Origin: a virus
Virus record (IMG/VR): IMGVR_UViG_3300025695_000763
Coordinates: 1 to 38,368 of that record
Direction: 5' to 3' (one strand)
Length of the DNA: 38,368 bases
Shown here: one piece after another, positions 2,161 through 10,366 of the stretch
Numbering within the stretch: position 1 is the stretch's first letter
Layout: every line of letters starts with the position of its first letter
Notes under the pieces: generated by a model
What the model was told of the DNA's origin: nothing
Seen by the model: the letters and a program-made list of their open reading frames with translations, nothing else
Database searches by the model: none
Made by a program: the position numbers and the translations under genes

Positions 2161-2367
2161 ATGAATGGTACACGTAAAGAATTTGTATTAGGTATGCTTT
2201 TTGTAGTAGCAGTATCTATTATCTTCGAGACATTTCGGGCTAGATTAGACCTCGGCGCTGCCCCATGGTATCTGGTCTTCGCTTCTATCGTTTCGTTTGG
2301 ATATTGTGCATTCTACCTAATCGAAGCTGTCGTAGACCTTAAGAAGTCTATGACACGATATAAATAG
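2161..2367 (+). CDS. Small two-helix membrane protein
   Basis: A 68-residue protein with two hydrophobic segments (about residues 9-23 and 36-57) separated by a charged/proline turn, and a basic C-terminus (LKKSMTRYK). Probably an inner-membrane protein with both ends on the same side. It is the first gene after promoter P1, with an AGGAA-type ribosome site at 2150-2154. Not recognised as a named family. Its last codons overlap a TATAAATA late-type promoter box. Confidence 0.65.
   Translation: MNGTRKEFVLGMLFVVAVSIIFETFRARLDLGAAPWYLVFASIVSFGYCAFYLIEAVVDLKKSMTRYK
2359..2366 (+). promoter_or_regulatory. Candidate T4-type late promoter box
   Basis: TATAAATA, identical to the T4 late -10 box, overlaps the stop of the 2161 gene and lies 132 bp before hsp20. 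A transcript beginning about 6 bases downstream would carry the whole structured leader of hsp20. An AT-rich octamer can occur by chance. Confidence 0.45.
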
Positions 2368-2498
2368 TTTAGTCCCACTACCTTGGGATCGAGCCTGAGT
2401 ATGCTCCCAAACTACTCACTACAACTTAACTGAGAAAGAATGCCGAATGGTTCGGGTTCATAATTCTCAATCTTGCTTTAATATTAAGGAGATACACA
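2368..2498 (+). promoter_or_regulatory. Structured hsp20 leader with ROSE-like RNA thermometer
   Basis: A 131-base leader upstream of a small heat-shock gene. Visible pairings: TCCCA 2373-2377 / TGGGA 2384-2388, in conflict with an alternative TTGG 2383-2386 / CCAA 2407-2410 plus GAGC 2391-2394 / GCTC 2403-2406. Next is a long hairpin TGAGAA 2431-2436 / TTCTCA 2464-2469 enclosing CCGAA 2443-2447 / TTCGG 2451-2455. Last is CTTGCTT 2472-2478 pairing with AAGGAG 2486-2491 across a 7-base loop, leaving G2475 bulged. This terminal hairpin buries the Shine-Dalgarno and contains the U(U/C)GCU anti-SD motif typical of ROSE thermometers. Structures were inferred by eye, without energy calculation. Confidence 0.6.
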
Positions 2499-2981
2499 AT
2501 GACTAACGTAAATGTCAAATCACTATTCCCACGTTCAGCTTTTGTTGGATTCGATCATCTATTCGATGAGCTAGACCGAGTCGCAAGGCACGCAAACGAT
2601 AACTACCCTCCTCACAATATCGTCAAGTTCGACGATACGACTTATCACGTCGAATTAGCAGTTGCTGGTTTTGCTGAGAATGAGTTACAAATAGAAGTGA
2701 AGGATCGCTCTCTATACGTTCGCGGTGAACATAAGAATAGGGGTCGGGAGTATATTCATAAAGGAATATCTGCTAAGAAATTTAACCGCACCTTCCGATT
2801 GTCGGAGTACGTGGAAGTCAATGGAGCTAATCTAACAGACGGAATCCTTGCCATAGAGTTGAAGGTAATCGTCCCAGAAGAAAAGCGTCCTCGTCAAATT
2901 GATATCAATTCAAACAGTCGAGGAATTACTAATGACTATCAAACAAAAGACCCAGAGTTTCTACGAGAAACAGGAAACTAA
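2499..2981 (+). CDS. hsp20: Hsp20/IbpA-type small heat-shock protein
   Basis: A 160-residue cytoplasmic holdase chaperone of the alpha-crystallin family. The crystallin core runs from about residue 40 to 130: the segment with YHVELAVAGF, then ENELQIEVKDRSLYVRGEH, the FNRTFRL strand, and ILAIELKVIVPEE before the IxI-like region PRQIDIN. Such genes are common in T4-like marine phages and may protect virion assembly or host proteins during infection. GGAG lies 7 bases before the ATG, inside a hairpin that resembles a heat-opened RNA thermometer, so translation is probably temperature dependent. Confidence 0.93.
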   Translation: MTNVNVKSLFPRSAFVGFDHLFDELDRVARHANDNYPPHNIVKFDDTTYHVELAVAGFAENELQIEVKDRSLYVRGEHKNRGREYIHKGISAKKFNRTFRLSEYVEVNGANLTDGILAIELKVIVPEEKRPRQIDINSNSRGITNDYQTKDPEFLRETGN

Positions 2982-3681: not shown

Positions 3682-6201
3682 TTGAAATTCTACACTAATG
3701 TGTCTAGGTTCGGTAATAGCTTACTTGTTCGTGGCTACAAAAACGGACACAAGTTCCAAGACCGAGTCAATTTCGCCCCAACGCTATTCGTCCCATCGGA
3801 GAACGGCGATTGGAAATCCTTAGACGGTACTAAGCTTGCTCCTGTTGAACTTGATTCTATGCGCGAAGCAAAAGACTTCATGGCGCAGTATGGCGATACG
3901 TCTAACTTTAAAATCTATGGCAATACTAACTACATCGCCCAGTACGTCCAGCAACAACACCCAGGAAATATCGAGTTTAACCGAGATAACATCAACGTAA
4001 CAACTATCGATATCGAGGTTGCTTCAGATGAGGGATTCCCTCAGCCACGCGAAGCCAACTATCCTGTAATATCTATTGCTTTAAAGAATAACATTGATAA
4101 CGTTTACTATGTTTGGGGTCTTGATGACTTTGATGTTAGTAAAGCGTTGATGAAAGACTATGAAGTAATCTATTACAAGTGCGAGTCCGAAGCTCATCTC
4201 CTAATGAACTTCGTAAACCATTGGTCTTTACCTAAGAATATGCCCGACGTTGTTACTGGCTGGAACTCTACTCTATTTGATATTCCTTACCTTGTAAACC
4301 GTATGTCTCGTATTATCGGTAATGATATGGTTAAGAAACTATCTCCTTGGGGTAAAATCAACGAGCGAGAAGTCAAGTTGATGAACCGAGTTGAGCAGAA
4401 GTTCGAGTTGGTTGGTATTGAACTCCTAGATTACCTTGACCTGTATAAGAAGTTTACTTACTCTGCAGAAGAGTCGTATAAACTAGACCATATCGCTCAC
4501 GTTGTACTCGGCGAGAAGAAGTTATCGTACGAAGAACACGGCAACCTTTATACTCTTTACAAAGAAGATCACCAGAAGTTTATCGACTATAACATCAAAG
4601 ACGTTGAGTTGGTTGACCGTATGGAAGATAAGATGGGGTTGATTACCCTTTGTATGACTTTGGCTTATAAAGCTGGGGTAAACTATTCTGAAGCATTTGG
4701 TACAACTGGTATCTGGGATACTTACATCTATCGTGTATTACATGAAGATAAGGTAGCTCCGCCACCTAAACAAGATAACTTCAAGGCAGACTTCCCAGGT
4801 GGTTATGTTAAAGCTCCTCGGGTTGGTCGTCATTCTTGGGTAGTTTCTTTTGATTTAAACTCACTATATCCGCATTTGATTATGCAGTATAATATGAGTC
4901 CTGAGACTATCGTACAAGAATCCACCACTGGCGTTACTGTAGATAATGTACTTAACCTACAAAAGCCTGATTCAGTTCGACCTGATTGTACAATGGCTGC
5001 TAACGGTTCGCATTACCGCAAAGACGTTCGTGGAGTTATACCTAAACTCGTTGAAGATATGTATGCTGGTCGTAAGGTTGTTAAGAAGGAAATGCTCAAA
5101 TACGAGCAAGAACTACAGCATGCCGATAAGAACGATAAGAAAGAAATCTACCGATTAGAAAAGTCTATCACTACACTTGACAACGAGCAGATGGCTCTTA
5201 AGATCATGATGAACTCACTTTATGGTGCTATCGGTAATCGTTGGTTCAGATACTATGACCTTCGTATTGCTGAAGGTATTACTCTATCTGGTCAGTTATC
5301 TATTCGTTGGGCAGAGAAAGCTGTAAACAATTTCATCAATAAGATACTAGGTGTAACTGGTAAAGATCACGTTATCGCTATCGATACTGACTCGGTCTAC
5401 ATTGACTTCGAGCCGTTGGTTAAGCACTTAAACTGGGATAAGAAACCAAAGGAAGATGTCGTTAAGTTGATTGACAAAGTATGTTCCGACCAGTTTGAAC
5501 CTATGCTAGAACGTTCTTATGAACAGCTTGCTGAGTATATGGACGCATATGAGAATAAGATGGCCATGGCTCGTGAAGCTATTGCCGATGCTGGTATCTG
5601 GACTGCTAAGAAACGATACATACTAAACGTACACAACAACGAAGGTGTTCAGTATTCTAAACCAAAACTGAAGATAATGGGTATCGAAGCTGTTAAGTCG
5701 TCGACTCCTATGTCTTGCCGTGATGCGTTGAAGGCGTTGTTTAAAGTAATCGTATCTGGCACTGAGAAAGATACCCAAACTGCTATCGCCCAATTCAAGG
5801 AACACTTTATCAACCTTCCTCCCGAAAAGGTTGCGTTTCCTCGTGGGGTTTCTAAGGTTACTGCTTGGGAAGATAAGACTCTCGTGTATAAGAAAGGGTG
5901 TCCTATTCACGTTCGTGGTGCTATCCTATATAACAAAGCATTATCTGATAACAACCTTAAACGGTATCAGACGATACAAGATGGCGAGAAGATTAAGTTC
6001 TGCTATCTTAAAACACCAAATCCTATCAAGGAGAATGTGATTGCGTTTCCGGAGTACTTACCGGAGGAGTTGAAGCTCCATAAATACATTAACTATGACC
6101 TTCAGTTTGAGAAGGCATTCCTAGACGTTGTTCGTCCGATATTGGCTGCGATCGGTTGGAACGAAGAAGAAACAGTAAGCCTTGAGGATTTTTTCGCATG
6201 A
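3682..6201 (+). CDS. 43: DNA polymerase gp43 (family B)
   Basis: Replicative DNA polymerase with 3'-5' proofreading, 839 residues (T4 gp43 is 898). Exo I is IDIEV near residue 110, and Exo II is TGWNSTLFDIPY. Palm motif A is SFDLNSLYP near 390, motif B is MMNSLYGAIGN near 510, and motif C is IDTDSVY near 570. KLKIMGIEAVKSSTP also matches T4. The last residues, VSLEDFFA, correspond to the T4 C-terminal clamp-binding peptide (SLDFLFG). Translation appears to begin at TTG 3682, with GAGG about 10 bases upstream; no ATG fits the N-terminal homology. Its stop overlaps the MazG-like start (ATGA). Confidence 0.98.
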   Translation: MKFYTNVSRFGNSLLVRGYKNGHKFQDRVNFAPTLFVPSENGDWKSLDGTKLAPVELDSMREAKDFMAQYGDTSNFKIYGNTNYIAQYVQQQHPGNIEFNRDNINVTTIDIEVASDEGFPQPREANYPVISIALKNNIDNVYYVWGLDDFDVSKALMKDYEVIYYKCESEAHLLMNFVNHWSLPKNMPDVVTGWNSTLFDIPYLVNRMSRIIGNDMVKKLSPWGKINEREVKLMNRVEQKFELVGIELLDYLDLYKKFTYSAEESYKLDHIAHVVLGEKKLSYEEHGNLYTLYKEDHQKFIDYNIKDVELVDRMEDKMGLITLCMTLAYKAGVNYSEAFGTTGIWDTYIYRVLHEDKVAPPPKQDNFKADFPGGYVKAPRVGRHSWVVSFDLNSLYPHLIMQYNMSPETIVQESTTGVTVDNVLNLQKPDSVRPDCTMAANGSHYRKDVRGVIPKLVEDMYAGRKVVKKEMLKYEQELQHADKNDKKEIYRLEKSITTLDNEQMALKIMMNSLYGAIGNRWFRYYDLRIAEGITLSGQLSIRWAEKAVNNFINKILGVTGKDHVIAIDTDSVYIDFEPLVKHLNWDKKPKEDVVKLIDKVCSDQFEPMLERSYEQLAEYMDAYENKMAMAREAIADAGIWTAKKRYILNVHNNEGVQYSKPKLKIMGIEAVKSSTPMSCRDALKALFKVIVSGTEKDTQTAIAQFKEHFINLPPEKVAFPRGVSKVTAWEDKTLVYKKGCPIHVRGAILYNKALSDNNLKRYQTIQDGEKIKFCYLKTPNPIKENVIAFPEYLPEELKLHKYINYDLQFEKAFLDVVRPILAAIGWNEEETVSLEDFFA

Positions 6202-6631: not shown

Positions 6632-8062
6632 ATGGAATTAGTTAAGTTTGGTGGATACGAGTGGCAAAAGTACGTTGGCTCTGAAGGGCAAGACGTCTAC
6701 GTTGCTATGTTCGTAGTCGACCAAGATGAGTTATTAGGTAAGTATGCCGATGAAGGCTCGTACGATATCTTAATCGATAGCGATGCGGACTTCTACTTAC
6801 CGCCTGAGTGTGATATGACAGAAGCAACCAATTGTAATAATGAATGTATTGGTTGTATCGGCGAAGATCGTGTTGCTTTCAAGTTTAGAAAGGGTGTGTT
6901 CACTCAAGACGAACAGAACGGTGCGTTCGAAGGGTTATTCTCGGCAGCAGCTGAATCTAATAACCGTGGTATGGCTGCGGGTCCACGTGCCGAGAAGTCT
7001 GGTGGTCGTGATTGGGTTACTCCTTTCCAACGTGACCTTCTTGATTACTATATGGACGGTTCGCCTCAAAGTGTTATGGGTGGCGATCCGATCGAAGAGA
7101 TAATCGAGAAACATAAAACCGCCCAGTACGAAACACGTGGTGAGGTATGGCTTCGCTCTAAGATTGAATCAGAGTTTGGGGTCTATGACAACTTCTTCTC
7201 AGTTGCCGAGAAACGTCTTGCCGAGCTTGATGTTAATGATGCTCGCTCCTATGCCAAGAAGTTACACGAAACAATGATCTCTGATACTTCTTATGCTACG
7301 CCGTTGTGGTCTGGTATTACTGGTTTCTATGGTCGTTATCCTCGTATTCCGTATGGTCGAGCAACTTCCCACGTTGAGCATAACCGTACTGAGTTTGAGA
7401 AGTGCTATCCGTTTGCTCGTAAGTTAGATAAGACTATGGCTGACTTGATGCCAGTTCGTTATGAAGCTCAGAAGAAGTGTGCCGACCAAGTTGATAAGAA
7501 GTTCTTAATTGGTGAAGATACTACCTTTACAACCGTAACAGTTAACACTACTATGAAAGACCGTAATGCTCGTATGGCTTGCCATCGCGACGCTGGTTCT
7601 TTGAACGAAGGGTTTTCTAACTTGACGGTAATCTCTCCTGAAGGTAAGGATTGGAAGGGTGGTTACTTAGTTGCTCCGGAAGTTCGTGCTGCGATTAATG
7701 TTCGTCCAGGCGATTTGCTACTGATCGACAATATGAGAGTTATCCACGGTAACACGCCTATCGATGCTCCCGAATCAGGTGAAGATGACTTACTACGTAT
7801 GTCTCTTGTATTCTATTTCCGCGAAGATATGTTAAATCTAGGCGACTGGGATTATGAGCAACTACGTCGTAAGTTCGTTGACGACCGTAGATTGAATAAG
7901 GAACATCCTCACTGGCGCGAGCGTTGGAATGGGGTATCTCCTGGAATGTGGCATAGCCAAGAGTGGTTTGATTACCTAATTGAGAATGGCGGTAGGGAAA
8001 TGGCTGAACGTAATGACCCAGACGCCTTAGTTGAACAAGCAAGTTTGGAGGACTTCTTTTAA
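6632..8062 (+). CDS. TET/JBP-family 2OG-Fe(II) DNA base hydroxylase
   Basis: Predicted 476-residue 2-oxoglutarate/Fe(II) dioxygenase of the TET/JBP family, which hydroxylates 5-methylcytosine or thymine in DNA. Iron ligands are H318 and D320 (CHRDAG) and H372 (VIHGN). R389 or R397, in the block RMSLVFYFRED, would bind 2-oxoglutarate. GYLVAPEV and GDLLLIDN lie between them, as in JBP-like enzymes. The N-terminal third (about residues 1-200) is unassigned and carries a cysteine cluster (C60, C68, C72, C75). The protein ends QASLEDFF, nearly identical to the DNA polymerase tail, suggesting clamp binding. It overlaps the glycosyltransferase start by one base. No C5-methyltransferase is visible here, so the base substrate is open. 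Confidence 0.85.
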   Translation: MELVKFGGYEWQKYVGSEGQDVYVAMFVVDQDELLGKYADEGSYDILIDSDADFYLPPECDMTEATNCNNECIGCIGEDRVAFKFRKGVFTQDEQNGAFEGLFSAAAESNNRGMAAGPRAEKSGGRDWVTPFQRDLLDYYMDGSPQSVMGGDPIEEIIEKHKTAQYETRGEVWLRSKIESEFGVYDNFFSVAEKRLAELDVNDARSYAKKLHETMISDTSYATPLWSGITGFYGRYPRIPYGRATSHVEHNRTEFEKCYPFARKLDKTMADLMPVRYEAQKKCADQVDKKFLIGEDTTFTTVTVNTTMKDRNARMACHRDAGSLNEGFSNLTVISPEGKDWKGGYLVAPEVRAAINVRPGDLLLIDNMRVIHGNTPIDAPESGEDDLLRMSLVFYFREDMLNLGDWDYEQLRRKFVDDRRLNKEHPHWRERWNGVSPGMWHSQEWFDYLIENGGREMAERNDPDALVEQASLEDFF

Positions 8063-8877
8063 TGAGAATTTTAATTCCTACATATATGCGTGAAGATAAT
8101 CAACGTTGTTGGGATAATATGCCGGAGTCGGTTCGTTCGCGAACCACTCTGTGTACTCGTTCTGACCGAGTTGATGTTTTGAAAGAAAACTATCCCGATG
8201 CTGATGTTCTAGATATCGGTATGACTGATGGTATTGCTGATGTTCGCCAGCGTCTGGTTAATCTGGGCAATGGCGAAAAGATTATGATCATTGACGACAA
8301 CTGTACGTTTATGTATCGTGACGAAGAAATGAAACTCAAGAAGATGGAGACTGAAGAGCAGTGGTTCGAGATGCTTTCTATGGTTGAGGAAGAACTCGAT
8401 AACTATGCTTGGGTTGGTATCTCAGACCGTGCGGGTAACAACCGTATCGAGGAAGATCTAGTTGAGATTACTCGTTCATATTCTTGTTATGGTATTAACA
8501 CTCAGATGTTTAATGACAATGACATCAGCTTTGATGGTATGTGGAGTAAAGATAAAAATATAAAGCTTTTTGAAGATTTTTACGCTATACTATCACTATT
8601 GAAGGCTGGAATGAAGAATGCTGTTATATACAAGTATGCGTTCAACCACCCTCATGGCAAACCTGGAGGCAACTCTACGTTTCGTAATGGAGAACTACAA
8701 GAATCTTGTTACCGAGCGTTACAGCGTGAGTTCCCTGGAGTTGTTAAACTGACTGTGAAAGAAAATGCTTCTTGGACTACTGATGAAGGTTCTACTACTC
8801 GTGTAGAAGCAATTATCAGTTGGAAGAAAGCTTTTATCGATAGATCTGGAGCTACATTAGATGAATTCTTTGGTTAA
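8062..8877 (+). CDS. TET-associated-type DNA glycosyltransferase
   Basis: A 271-residue GT-A-like protein resembling the TET-associated glycosyltransferases that add sugars to hydroxylated DNA bases. Evidence is the N-terminal strand RILIPTYMRE, GIADVRQRLV, and the metal/nucleotide-sugar motif IMIIDDNCTF near residue 75 (DDN in place of the usual DDD). It lies directly downstream of the oxygenase with a one-base overlap. A short FNHPHGKPGG segment lies in the middle. It ends ATLDEFFG, a second copy of the clamp-binding-like tail. It probably transfers a sugar from a nucleotide donor made by the next gene to hydroxymethylated bases in phage DNA. The sugar cannot be told. Confidence 0.75.
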   Translation: MRILIPTYMREDNQRCWDNMPESVRSRTTLCTRSDRVDVLKENYPDADVLDIGMTDGIADVRQRLVNLGNGEKIMIIDDNCTFMYRDEEMKLKKMETEEQWFEMLSMVEEELDNYAWVGISDRAGNNRIEEDLVEITRSYSCYGINTQMFNDNDISFDGMWSKDKNIKLFEDFYAILSLLKAGMKNAVIYKYAFNHPHGKPGGNSTFRNGELQESCYRALQREFPGVVKLTVKENASWTTDEGSTTRVEAIISWKKAFIDRSGATLDEFFG

Positions 8878-10366
8878 TCTCGTTATTCCTGCGGCAGGGT
8901 CGGCTACTCGACTCCGCCCTTTATCAAGCAACACTTCTAAGATTATGGTTCGTGTAAACGGTAAACCATGCTTAGACTATATCGTAGAACAGGCACGTAA
9001 GACTGCTAACATCAACGAGATCGTTATCGTTGACGGGCAGTTTGATGATGTGCGCGATTACTGTTCTGTTAAACATCCGGATATTAAGTTCGTAAAGCAA
9101 GGCGACCTACTCGGTCCACGTCATGCTATTATGAAAGGTGTTAACGAACTATCTTGCCCCGATCTACCACTCGTTGTTTGGTTAGGTGATGCGATTATCC
9201 TTGAAGAAGATATGCCTTTTGGTACGGACTTCTTGTTGGCTAAGTCTGCTGACGATCATTCTAACTGGTGTATGTGGGACGGTAGTAACTTCTTCAATAA
9301 ACCCGATAACTCTATAGCTAATGCTGATGCTCTTGTTGGTCTGTATTCCTTCAATGACGGTTTAGAAGCTAAAGAGGCATTCAACTATGCTTCTGGTTAT
9401 GAAATCTCAGAAGCGCTCGAGAACTATAATGCTGGGAATTACACCAAGGTAATGACTAACAAGTGGTACGATATTGGTGAACTCCCTTCGTATTACAAGA
9501 CTTGTGCTGCTCTATTAAACCTAAAGTCTCGTGCGTTTAATACAATGGAATATGATCCTGAGCTTGGTACAGTTCGTAAGTCTCCGGACTATCATGACGC
9601 AGAATCAGTAACAACTATTAATCGAGAGAAAGGTTGGTATAAATGTTTGAACCAAAACCAATCTATGTTTGTCCCTAGAGTATTTGATACTGAATGTGAC
9701 ATTGTAATGTCGTATGAGTCTGGTACGTTACTATCCGACCTTATGTTATATGAGAACCTATCTGCTTCAGCTTGGGAATACATTATTGATAAGTTATTCC
9801 GATTGAAGACTAAGTTCTTTAATGACAAATGTGAAGATAGGGAGTTCTTGGGGGAGTTCTCTAAACTTTCTAGAGCTATGTGGTTCGATAAAACTGTTAG
9901 TAGAATTGATGAGAAAAACTACTTTACTTCTTCTACAAAAGATAGTATAATAGCTATTGCTGTCGAATGTCATCGTCACAGCCGTCCTACTTCTGGTATG
10001 CATGGCGATTTACATTTTGGCAATATTCTGTACAATCAGCAAACTGACCAGATTAGGTTAATTGACCCTCGAGGTGGATACGGTGAACACGAAGGTATAT
10101 ATGGTGACAACCTATATGACTGGTGTAAACTAGCGCACGACTTGTATCATGGCTACAACGCAATGGTTTCTAATGTTCCTCATAATCAGGACGTTAAAGA
10201 TATCTTTGTTCGTAAACTCCGTGAGTACGGTTTGCCAGTTGACCTAATCTTGGGTGGCGGTTTATTATTGATCGCTACTTGTATTCCTTTACACTATGAC
10301 GATTCTGGAAGACAAGAACGTTTTATTGACTACGTGGGCGATAACATTGAAAAGTATAGTATTTGA
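8861..10366 (+). CDS. Fused sugar nucleotidyltransferase / APH-type kinase
   Basis: A 501-residue two-domain enzyme. The N-terminal half (about 1-230) is a sugar-phosphate nucleotidyltransferase: IPAAGSATRLRPLS with a TSKIMV lysine and the GKPCLDYIVE segment, then VVWLGDAI. The C-terminal half has a kinase fold of the aminoglycoside/choline phosphotransferase type: the catalytic loop MHGDLHFGN (H381, D383) and the metal-binding IDPRG. Together they could phosphorylate a sugar and activate it to an NDP-sugar for the upstream glycosyltransferase. Similar fusions occur in surface-polysaccharide clusters, so a glycan role is the alternative. It starts 17 bp inside the glycosyltransferase gene. 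Confidence 0.82.
   Translation: MNSLVNLVIPAAGSATRLRPLSSNTSKIMVRVNGKPCLDYIVEQARKTANINEIVIVDGQFDDVRDYCSVKHPDIKFVKQGDLLGPRHAIMKGVNELSCPDLPLVVWLGDAIILEEDMPFGTDFLLAKSADDHSNWCMWDGSNFFNKPDNSIANADALVGLYSFNDGLEAKEAFNYASGYEISEALENYNAGNYTKVMTNKWYDIGELPSYYKTCAALLNLKSRAFNTMEYDPELGTVRKSPDYHDAESVTTINREKGWYKCLNQNQSMFVPRVFDTECDIVMSYESGTLLSDLMLYENLSASAWEYIIDKLFRLKTKFFNDKCEDREFLGEFSKLSRAMWFDKTVSRIDEKNYFTSSTKDSIIAIAVECHRHSRPTSGMHGDLHFGNILYNQQTDQIRLIDPRGGYGEHEGIYGDNLYDWCKLAHDLYHGYNAMVSNVPHNQDVKDIFVRKLREYGLPVDLILGGGLLLIATCIPLHYDDSGRQERFIDYVGDNIEKYSI
9923..9951 (+). promoter_or_regulatory. Intragenic sigma70-like promoter P4
   Basis: TTTACT 9923-9928, exactly 17 bp, TATAAT 9946-9951, inside the kinase half of the fused enzyme and about 400 bp before the HAD phosphatase. 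The fit to the family is as good as for intergenic members. Confidence 0.6.

Follow-up and report, generated by a model that had tools for sequence, protein, structure and literature searches.

A probable ROSE-type RNA thermometer in the leaders of hsp20 genes of T4-like marine phages

Among the core genes of T4-like cyanophages is hsp20, which encodes a small heat-shock protein. The role of the protein in the phage has been a matter of conjecture, the guesses being that it helps to scaffold the capsid (PMC3037559, PMC7674155) or lets the host survive heat (PMC7674155). The hsp20 leader found in a 38-kb IMG/VR virus fragment from a T4-like phage (hereafter the window, the whole stretch of 38,368 nucleotides that was analysed) raises the question of whether expression of the gene is itself governed by temperature. 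The initial annotation of the window read this leader as a ROSE RNA thermometer, a class of element described as always tied to bacterial small heat-shock genes (PMC4166951), and proposed that such an element, carried by a phage on its own small heat-shock gene, would be a new setting for the RNA. No earlier description of phage ROSE elements or of cyanophage RNA thermometers was found in a literature search, which left out most subscription journals and preprints, and the setting proved to be far wider than a single phage.

The leader (2368-2498) lies directly 3' of a small ORF (2161-2367) and is followed by hsp20 (2499..2981, + strand), whose 160-amino-acid product belongs to the small heat-shock proteins (PF00011, E 7.6e-19; phrog_432), placing it in the 5' untranslated region of a small heat-shock gene, the location expected of a ROSE element. 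Upstream are regA (1682-2098) and clamp-loader genes; 3' of hsp20 the window has genes for a family-B DNA polymerase (3682-6201), UvsX, a DnaB-like helicase and ribonucleotide reductase. The nearest named genome, that of phage C48C1 (Kyanoviridae), runs from regA through two ORFs to hsp20 and through two more to the polymerase gene. Within the window no tRNA or tmRNA was found in the leader; some relatives have a tmRNA gene immediately 5' of their hsp20 leader (loci L043, 2565-2972; L003, 1-165; and L037), that of L003 being permuted according to Rfam. Elsewhere in the window (8062-10366), a gene for a TET-associated glycosyltransferase (PF20691), followed by one for a nucleotidyltransferase with a kinase-like part, suggests that the phage DNA is modified.

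The minimum-energy fold of the 3' part of the leader contains two hairpins, each with one bulged G. In hairpin II (AUCUU[G2475]CUU-UAAUAUU-AAGGAGAU; 2470..2493, + strand), assigned here as the thermosensing hairpin, the ROSE anti-Shine-Dalgarno motif UUGCU (2473..2477, +), which includes the bulged G2475, faces the hsp20 Shine-Dalgarno sequence AAGGAG (2486..2491, +). The latter, located 7 nt 5' of the ATG at 2499, is sequestered in the predicted fold. The outer pairs are A2470-U2493, U2471-A2492, C2472-G2491, U2473-A2490 and U2474-G2489, and beyond the bulge the inner pairs are C2476-G2488, U2477-A2487 and U2478-A2486. The pairing of CTTGCTT (2472-2478) with the Shine-Dalgarno sequence, leaving one G bulged, had been put forward in the initial annotation with coordinates that are exact. 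The annotation had also placed further hairpins upstream; those before 2431 are lineage-specific and occur in only four IMG/VR contigs. Hairpin I (GAAU[G2442]CCGAA-UGG-UUCGGGUUC; 2438..2459, +) is conserved and supplies the additional 5' hairpin of ROSE elements. In hairpin I nucleotides 2438-2441 pair with 2456-2459, G2442 is bulged and 2443-2447 pair with 2451-2455, so that its bulge repeats the motif of hairpin II, 5'-Y[G]C-3' facing 5'-GG-3', a likeness that the annotation had passed over. In the minimum-energy fold a lower stem specific to the window (2431-2436 with 2464-2469; 2431..2469, +) lengthens hairpin I. The fold energy of the leader is unremarkable for its composition (z of +0.24 for 2468-2515, -0.66 for the whole leader and -1.56 for 2420-2520) and is insufficient on its own; the leader stands above chance because it is conserved in relatives.

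The comparison set comprised 81 window-type loci (80 from IMG/VR and C48C1), which yielded 51 unique leaders, one of them from the near-identical contig L002, together with leaders gathered through the Hsp20 proteins of cyanophages, Methylophilales phages and pelagiphages. U(U/C)GCU faces the Shine-Dalgarno sequence in 161 of the 165 unique phage hsp20 leaders (UUGCU in 116, UCGCU in 45), and both bulged hairpins are present in about 154. Using a motif parser, the two hairpins were identified in 51/51 window-type, 43/43 cyanophage-type, 55/60 Melnitz-type and 5/11 HTVC008M-type leaders; RNAalifold, which is independent of the parser, recovered both from a MAFFT-aligned clean subset. The bulged-G hairpin on the Shine-Dalgarno sequence of a small heat-shock gene, which the annotation took to be the defining feature of ROSE thermometers, is thus a near-invariant property of these phage leaders. 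Among the exceptions, one Melnitz-type leader has a changed Shine-Dalgarno sequence, and in four HTVC008M-like leaders (L271, L273, L276 and L278) CUGUCU replaces UUGCU before the Shine-Dalgarno sequence, a lineage in which the motif seems to have been lost or altered. The model fails to detect the leader of cyanophage S-B68 (L093), where UUUUAC[G]CU-uucg-AGGUAAAA nonetheless covers the Shine-Dalgarno sequence and, with entirely different bases, keeps the same bulge; the Vienna minimum-energy fold of that leader does not show this bulged hairpin in full.

The paired positions covary. As MAFFT alignment of all leaders misaligns the Shine-Dalgarno sequence, the first covariance model, R1, was built on the clean subset, and it detected 52 of 52 sources (E 3e-18 to 0.011). 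In the R1 leaders 97.6% of cells are paired, and covariation is 0.394, compared with 0.133 for shuffled and at most 0.096 for slid alignments. The larger alignment A6 (93 leaders) has 97.4% of cells paired, 210 two-sided changes and covariation of 0.419 (0.148 shuffled, ≤0.075 slid), values that come from an alignment fitted to the structure of the model and are still firmer than those obtained by parsimony. The compensatory changes that an alignment of related leaders had been expected to reveal were therefore found. In hairpin II of the window-type leaders the pairs facing the Shine-Dalgarno sequence are invariant, and the next pair outward (-4) is C-G in 31, U-A in 16 and A-U in 1. In hairpin I the stem covaries across relatives around an invariant bulge motif; parsimony on the Hsp20 protein tree (155 leaders) gave some 85 two-sided changes in this hairpin, a figure biased towards paired states since the hairpins were picked by pairing. 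The annotation had named beforehand, as grounds for abandoning the thermometer, a failure of related phages to conserve the UUGCU/AGGAG pairing; the proposal withstood this test, the pairing being retained and its flanking pairs covarying.

The element is strictly associated with hsp20. No bulged hairpin or motif was found in the other Shine-Dalgarno-bearing ORFs of the same loci (0/207), and when leaders were shuffled outside the Shine-Dalgarno sequence (2040 sequences) hairpin II arose in 1.8% and both hairpins in 0%. When whole phage records were searched with model R2, one match was obtained at hsp20 in 20 of 21 records, with an additional weak second match (E 0.02) in one record. Isolates with the match at hsp20 include S-MbCM100, S-CAM1, S-RIM12, S-MS29, Melnitz-3, HTVC008M and HTVC115P, as well as Sinorhizobium phage Phosso.

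A covariance search with the Rfam ROSE models, which the annotation had recommended, came out in favour of the alignment but not of the score. RF02523 (ROSE_3) matches 2434..2504 (+) over its full length (model 1-69), the two bulges and the start codon AUG all falling in register; its 26.7 bits lie under the gathering score of 43. The E value was 0.00097 against all families (261 bases) and 3.4e-5 when this one family was run on the window, where the next match was at 6.45. No Rfam family reaches its cut-off in the window at gathering thresholds, and RF00435 (ROSE) and RF01832 (ROSE_2) gave no match to this region of the window even at E up to 10. A Freshwater-2 RNA match in the leader (14.6 bits, E 6.6) was set aside as chance. 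Twelve of 20 other phage records matched ROSE_3 at E ≤ 0.1, the best at 38.2 bits and none above the cut-off; in 11 of the 12 the match is the hsp20 leader (E 4e-9 to 1e-4), and in S-MbCM100 the matches are weak and located elsewhere in the genome. The positive control, the 'Pseudomonas phage Y7' record, was the only record over the cut-off (69.2 bits), a result from which ROSE_3 appears to derive from the validated two-hairpin Pseudomonas ibpA elements. This record (L094, OQ572409.1) and that of Campylobacter phage A11a (L092, MG065691.1) are unverified entries containing ibpA-like genes, with ROSE_2 and ROSE_3 above cut-off, and look like bacterial DNA in phage records. Judged by sequence and structure, the window leader would be a member of the broad ROSE kind, one that falls below the Rfam cut-off.

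The ROSE-like thermometer of Pseudomonas ibpA is a 61-62 nt leader with two hairpins, of which hairpin II melts and hairpin I does not, and induction stops on deletion of the bulged G (PMC3669281, Krajewski et al. 2013). The phage element resembles it in having two hairpins, a leader of about 60 nt, an unpaired start codon, a hairpin II in which U(U/C)GCU pairs with the Shine-Dalgarno sequence around one bulged G, and a hairpin I with the same GAU[G]CCG...CGGGUC bulge. In contrast to the Pseudomonas element, it is phage-borne, sits behind a T4-type late promoter instead of a bacterial one, scores under the Rfam cut-off and is predicted to be less stable, and in the window a 62-nt 5' extension is added. 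The ROSE and ROSE_2 elements (RF00435 and RF01832; Bradyrhizobium hspA and E. coli ibpA) likewise precede small heat-shock genes and have a last hairpin with a bulged G opposite the Shine-Dalgarno sequence, although, unlike the window, they contain three to four hairpins. The λ cIII thermosensor is also a phage RNA with a temperature-responsive ribosome-binding site, the response of the window leader being the one predicted here, but it switches between two alternative folds, closes on heating, does not control a heat-shock gene and has no bulged-G hairpin (PMC4166951).

Relatives of the phage element occur in bacteria. The hsp20 leaders of SAR11 (L303, L308, L317, L321 and L356) carry the same two-hairpin, bulged-G element, scoring 37-45 bits with R2 and in no case reaching an Rfam cut-off; in this bacterial form hairpin II is predicted to be weaker still, with ΔG = 0 at about 28 °C. 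When bacterial genomes were searched, the window Hsp20 retrieved no relatives. The Melnitz Hsp20 retrieved mostly alpha- and gammaproteobacterial proteins, many with ROSE-like leaders, and the parser found the same last hairpin in 51 of the 76 bacterial hsp20 leaders so obtained. As proteobacterial leaders share the last hairpin and SAR11 the two-hairpin form, the phage and bacterial elements are most likely homologous. Two other sets of matches were seen in bacterial records. Rhodobacteraceae bacterium Water_Bin34 (L292, L293) has nine matches of the phage model, with leaders that resemble phage loci L232 and L247, and these are probably phage contigs binned with the bacterium. A 188-kb contig of Nonlabens xiamenensis (L360, NZ_RMVE01000006.1) has a cyanophage-type leader with a CTAAATA box; being the size of a T4-like phage genome, it may be one.

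Taken together, the leader is probably (at about 0.78) a ROSE-type RNA thermometer on a phage late gene, a reading that combines computed structure and conservation with a temperature response that we infer. By analogy with the Pseudomonas ibpA leaders (PMC3669281), hairpin II would hide the Shine-Dalgarno sequence when cool and open when warm. At the normal temperature of the host the late transcript would fold into two short hairpins, in which hairpin II, pairing the Shine-Dalgarno sequence with U(U/C)GCU around one bulged G, would form a deliberately imperfect helix that represses translation, while hairpin I, the stable 5' member with a matching bulge, would aid folding and might also shield the end of the transcript on that side. 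Warming within the physiological range would melt hairpin II and free the Shine-Dalgarno sequence, allowing Hsp20 to be translated from pre-existing mRNA, and the phages would thus probably make the chaperone mainly on warming of the infected cell. Calculations of stability are in part consistent with this proposal. By nearest-neighbour energies the ΔG of hairpin II is zero at 49 °C in the window (medians of 56, 53 and 44 °C for window-type, cyanophage-type and Melnitz-type leaders), and at 58 and 68 °C for Pseudomonas-type and E. coli-type controls, temperatures that allow one element to be set against another but should not be read as in vivo melting points. Removal of the bulged G raises the value for phage hairpin II by about 18-25 °C. 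Retention of the bulge nearly everywhere, even though all it does is weaken the helix, is more in keeping with a tuned helix than with a plain repressor. When 2434-2510 is folded alone the ROSE fold is dominant at all temperatures; in the full predicted leader (2372-2530), which includes the unusual 62-nt 5' extension, alternative structures are favoured at temperatures up to 20 °C, in part because the Shine-Dalgarno sequence pairs with coding sequence near 2526-2530. Also counting against the thermometer reading are the ROSE_3 score below the cut-off, the predicted opening of the Shine-Dalgarno sequence, which is no different from that of other genes of this phage, and the distance of the late box in the window, which is not the conserved one. 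Marine hosts meet only small swings in temperature, so the benefit of such a device is not obvious. Hairpin I may itself be a working part, as its bulge motif is kept in essentially all leaders while its stem turns over. The tandem Y[G]C/GG modules could then form a two-module heat sensor, with hairpin I, for example, docking on hairpin II to sharpen melting, that links the chaperone to the thermal condition of the infected cell in late-transcribed genes of T4-like marine phages; this elaboration is speculative and we hold it to be rather doubtful.

The strongest competitor to the thermometer is a conserved hairpin that is insensitive to temperature and either sets a low level of hsp20 translation or binds a protein (RegA or a host protein), or in which hairpin I serves chiefly to stabilise the 5' end. 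The predicted opening of the Shine-Dalgarno sequence between 4 and 50 °C leaves room for such a repressor, since it does not separate the hsp20 leaders from 20 Shine-Dalgarno-bearing ORFs of the window, and melting therefore does not single these leaders out. In addition, regA lies 400 nt upstream, and hairpin I of the relatives begins at about the predicted 5' end of the mRNA. Known T4 RegA sites, however, are the unstructured start regions of many early genes, while the element studied here is structured and occurs once per genome, at hsp20. The conserved part, moreover, is exactly the U(U/C)GCU with bulged G of validated thermometers that precede the same gene family (PMC3669281, PMC4166951), and the helix-weakening bulge is retained in nearly all leaders. 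We thus regard a repressor of this kind as unlikely.

The position of the promoter bears on a further possibility. A T4-type late promoter box (TATAAATA; 2359..2366, +) lies at the upstream edge of the leader, where it may drive the transcript of the window; matches to the box are frequent by chance (7 found, 4 expected). The spacing between box and start in T4 predicts transcription from ~2372 in the window. In relatives the bulged G of hairpin I usually follows the box at a distance of 8-11 nt in window-type and cyanophage-type leaders and of 10-13 nt in Melnitz-type ones, and by the same spacing the 5' end of the late transcript would fall roughly where hairpin I begins. The annotation's suggestion that the box is placed to include the whole leader holds better for the relatives than for the window, an exception in which the box is 75 nt upstream of that G because of the 62-nt 5' extension (2372..2433, +). 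This extension has two small predicted hairpins (2372-2377/2384-2389 and 2391-2394/2403-2406), is lineage-specific and lies outside the conserved element; its motif is limited to four IMG/VR contigs, being shared with L026, L027 and L029 besides the near-identical twin. Within it, GAGUA/UACUC versus GAGCA/UGCUC looks like one compensatory change. At some late genes of T4, hairpins have been described that discriminate early from late transcripts: the Shine-Dalgarno sequence is hidden in early transcripts that read through, and transcripts of the late class, initiated within the hairpin, undergo translation. The location of hsp20 within a replication gene cluster, with a late promoter box nearby, would suit such a device, but it needs a start inside the hairpin, and with the box of the relatives 8-11 nt before the hairpin I bulge the late transcript keeps both arms of both hairpins; on promoter position we dismissed this explanation as highly improbable. 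That the hairpin at the Shine-Dalgarno sequence arose by chance, as its ordinary fold energy might suggest, has a negligible probability given the A6 covariation, the control genes and shuffled leaders, and the specific association with hsp20.

ROSE-type leaders are near-universal before hsp20 in several abundant marine phage groups, behind the phage's own late promoter, and they escape notice when Rfam is searched at its usual cut-off. If the conserved leader senses heat, hsp20 would be a gene intended for expression on warming, and the question of its role becomes open to direct test. If these leaders work as proposed, infection by common ocean viruses would include a temperature-gated step.
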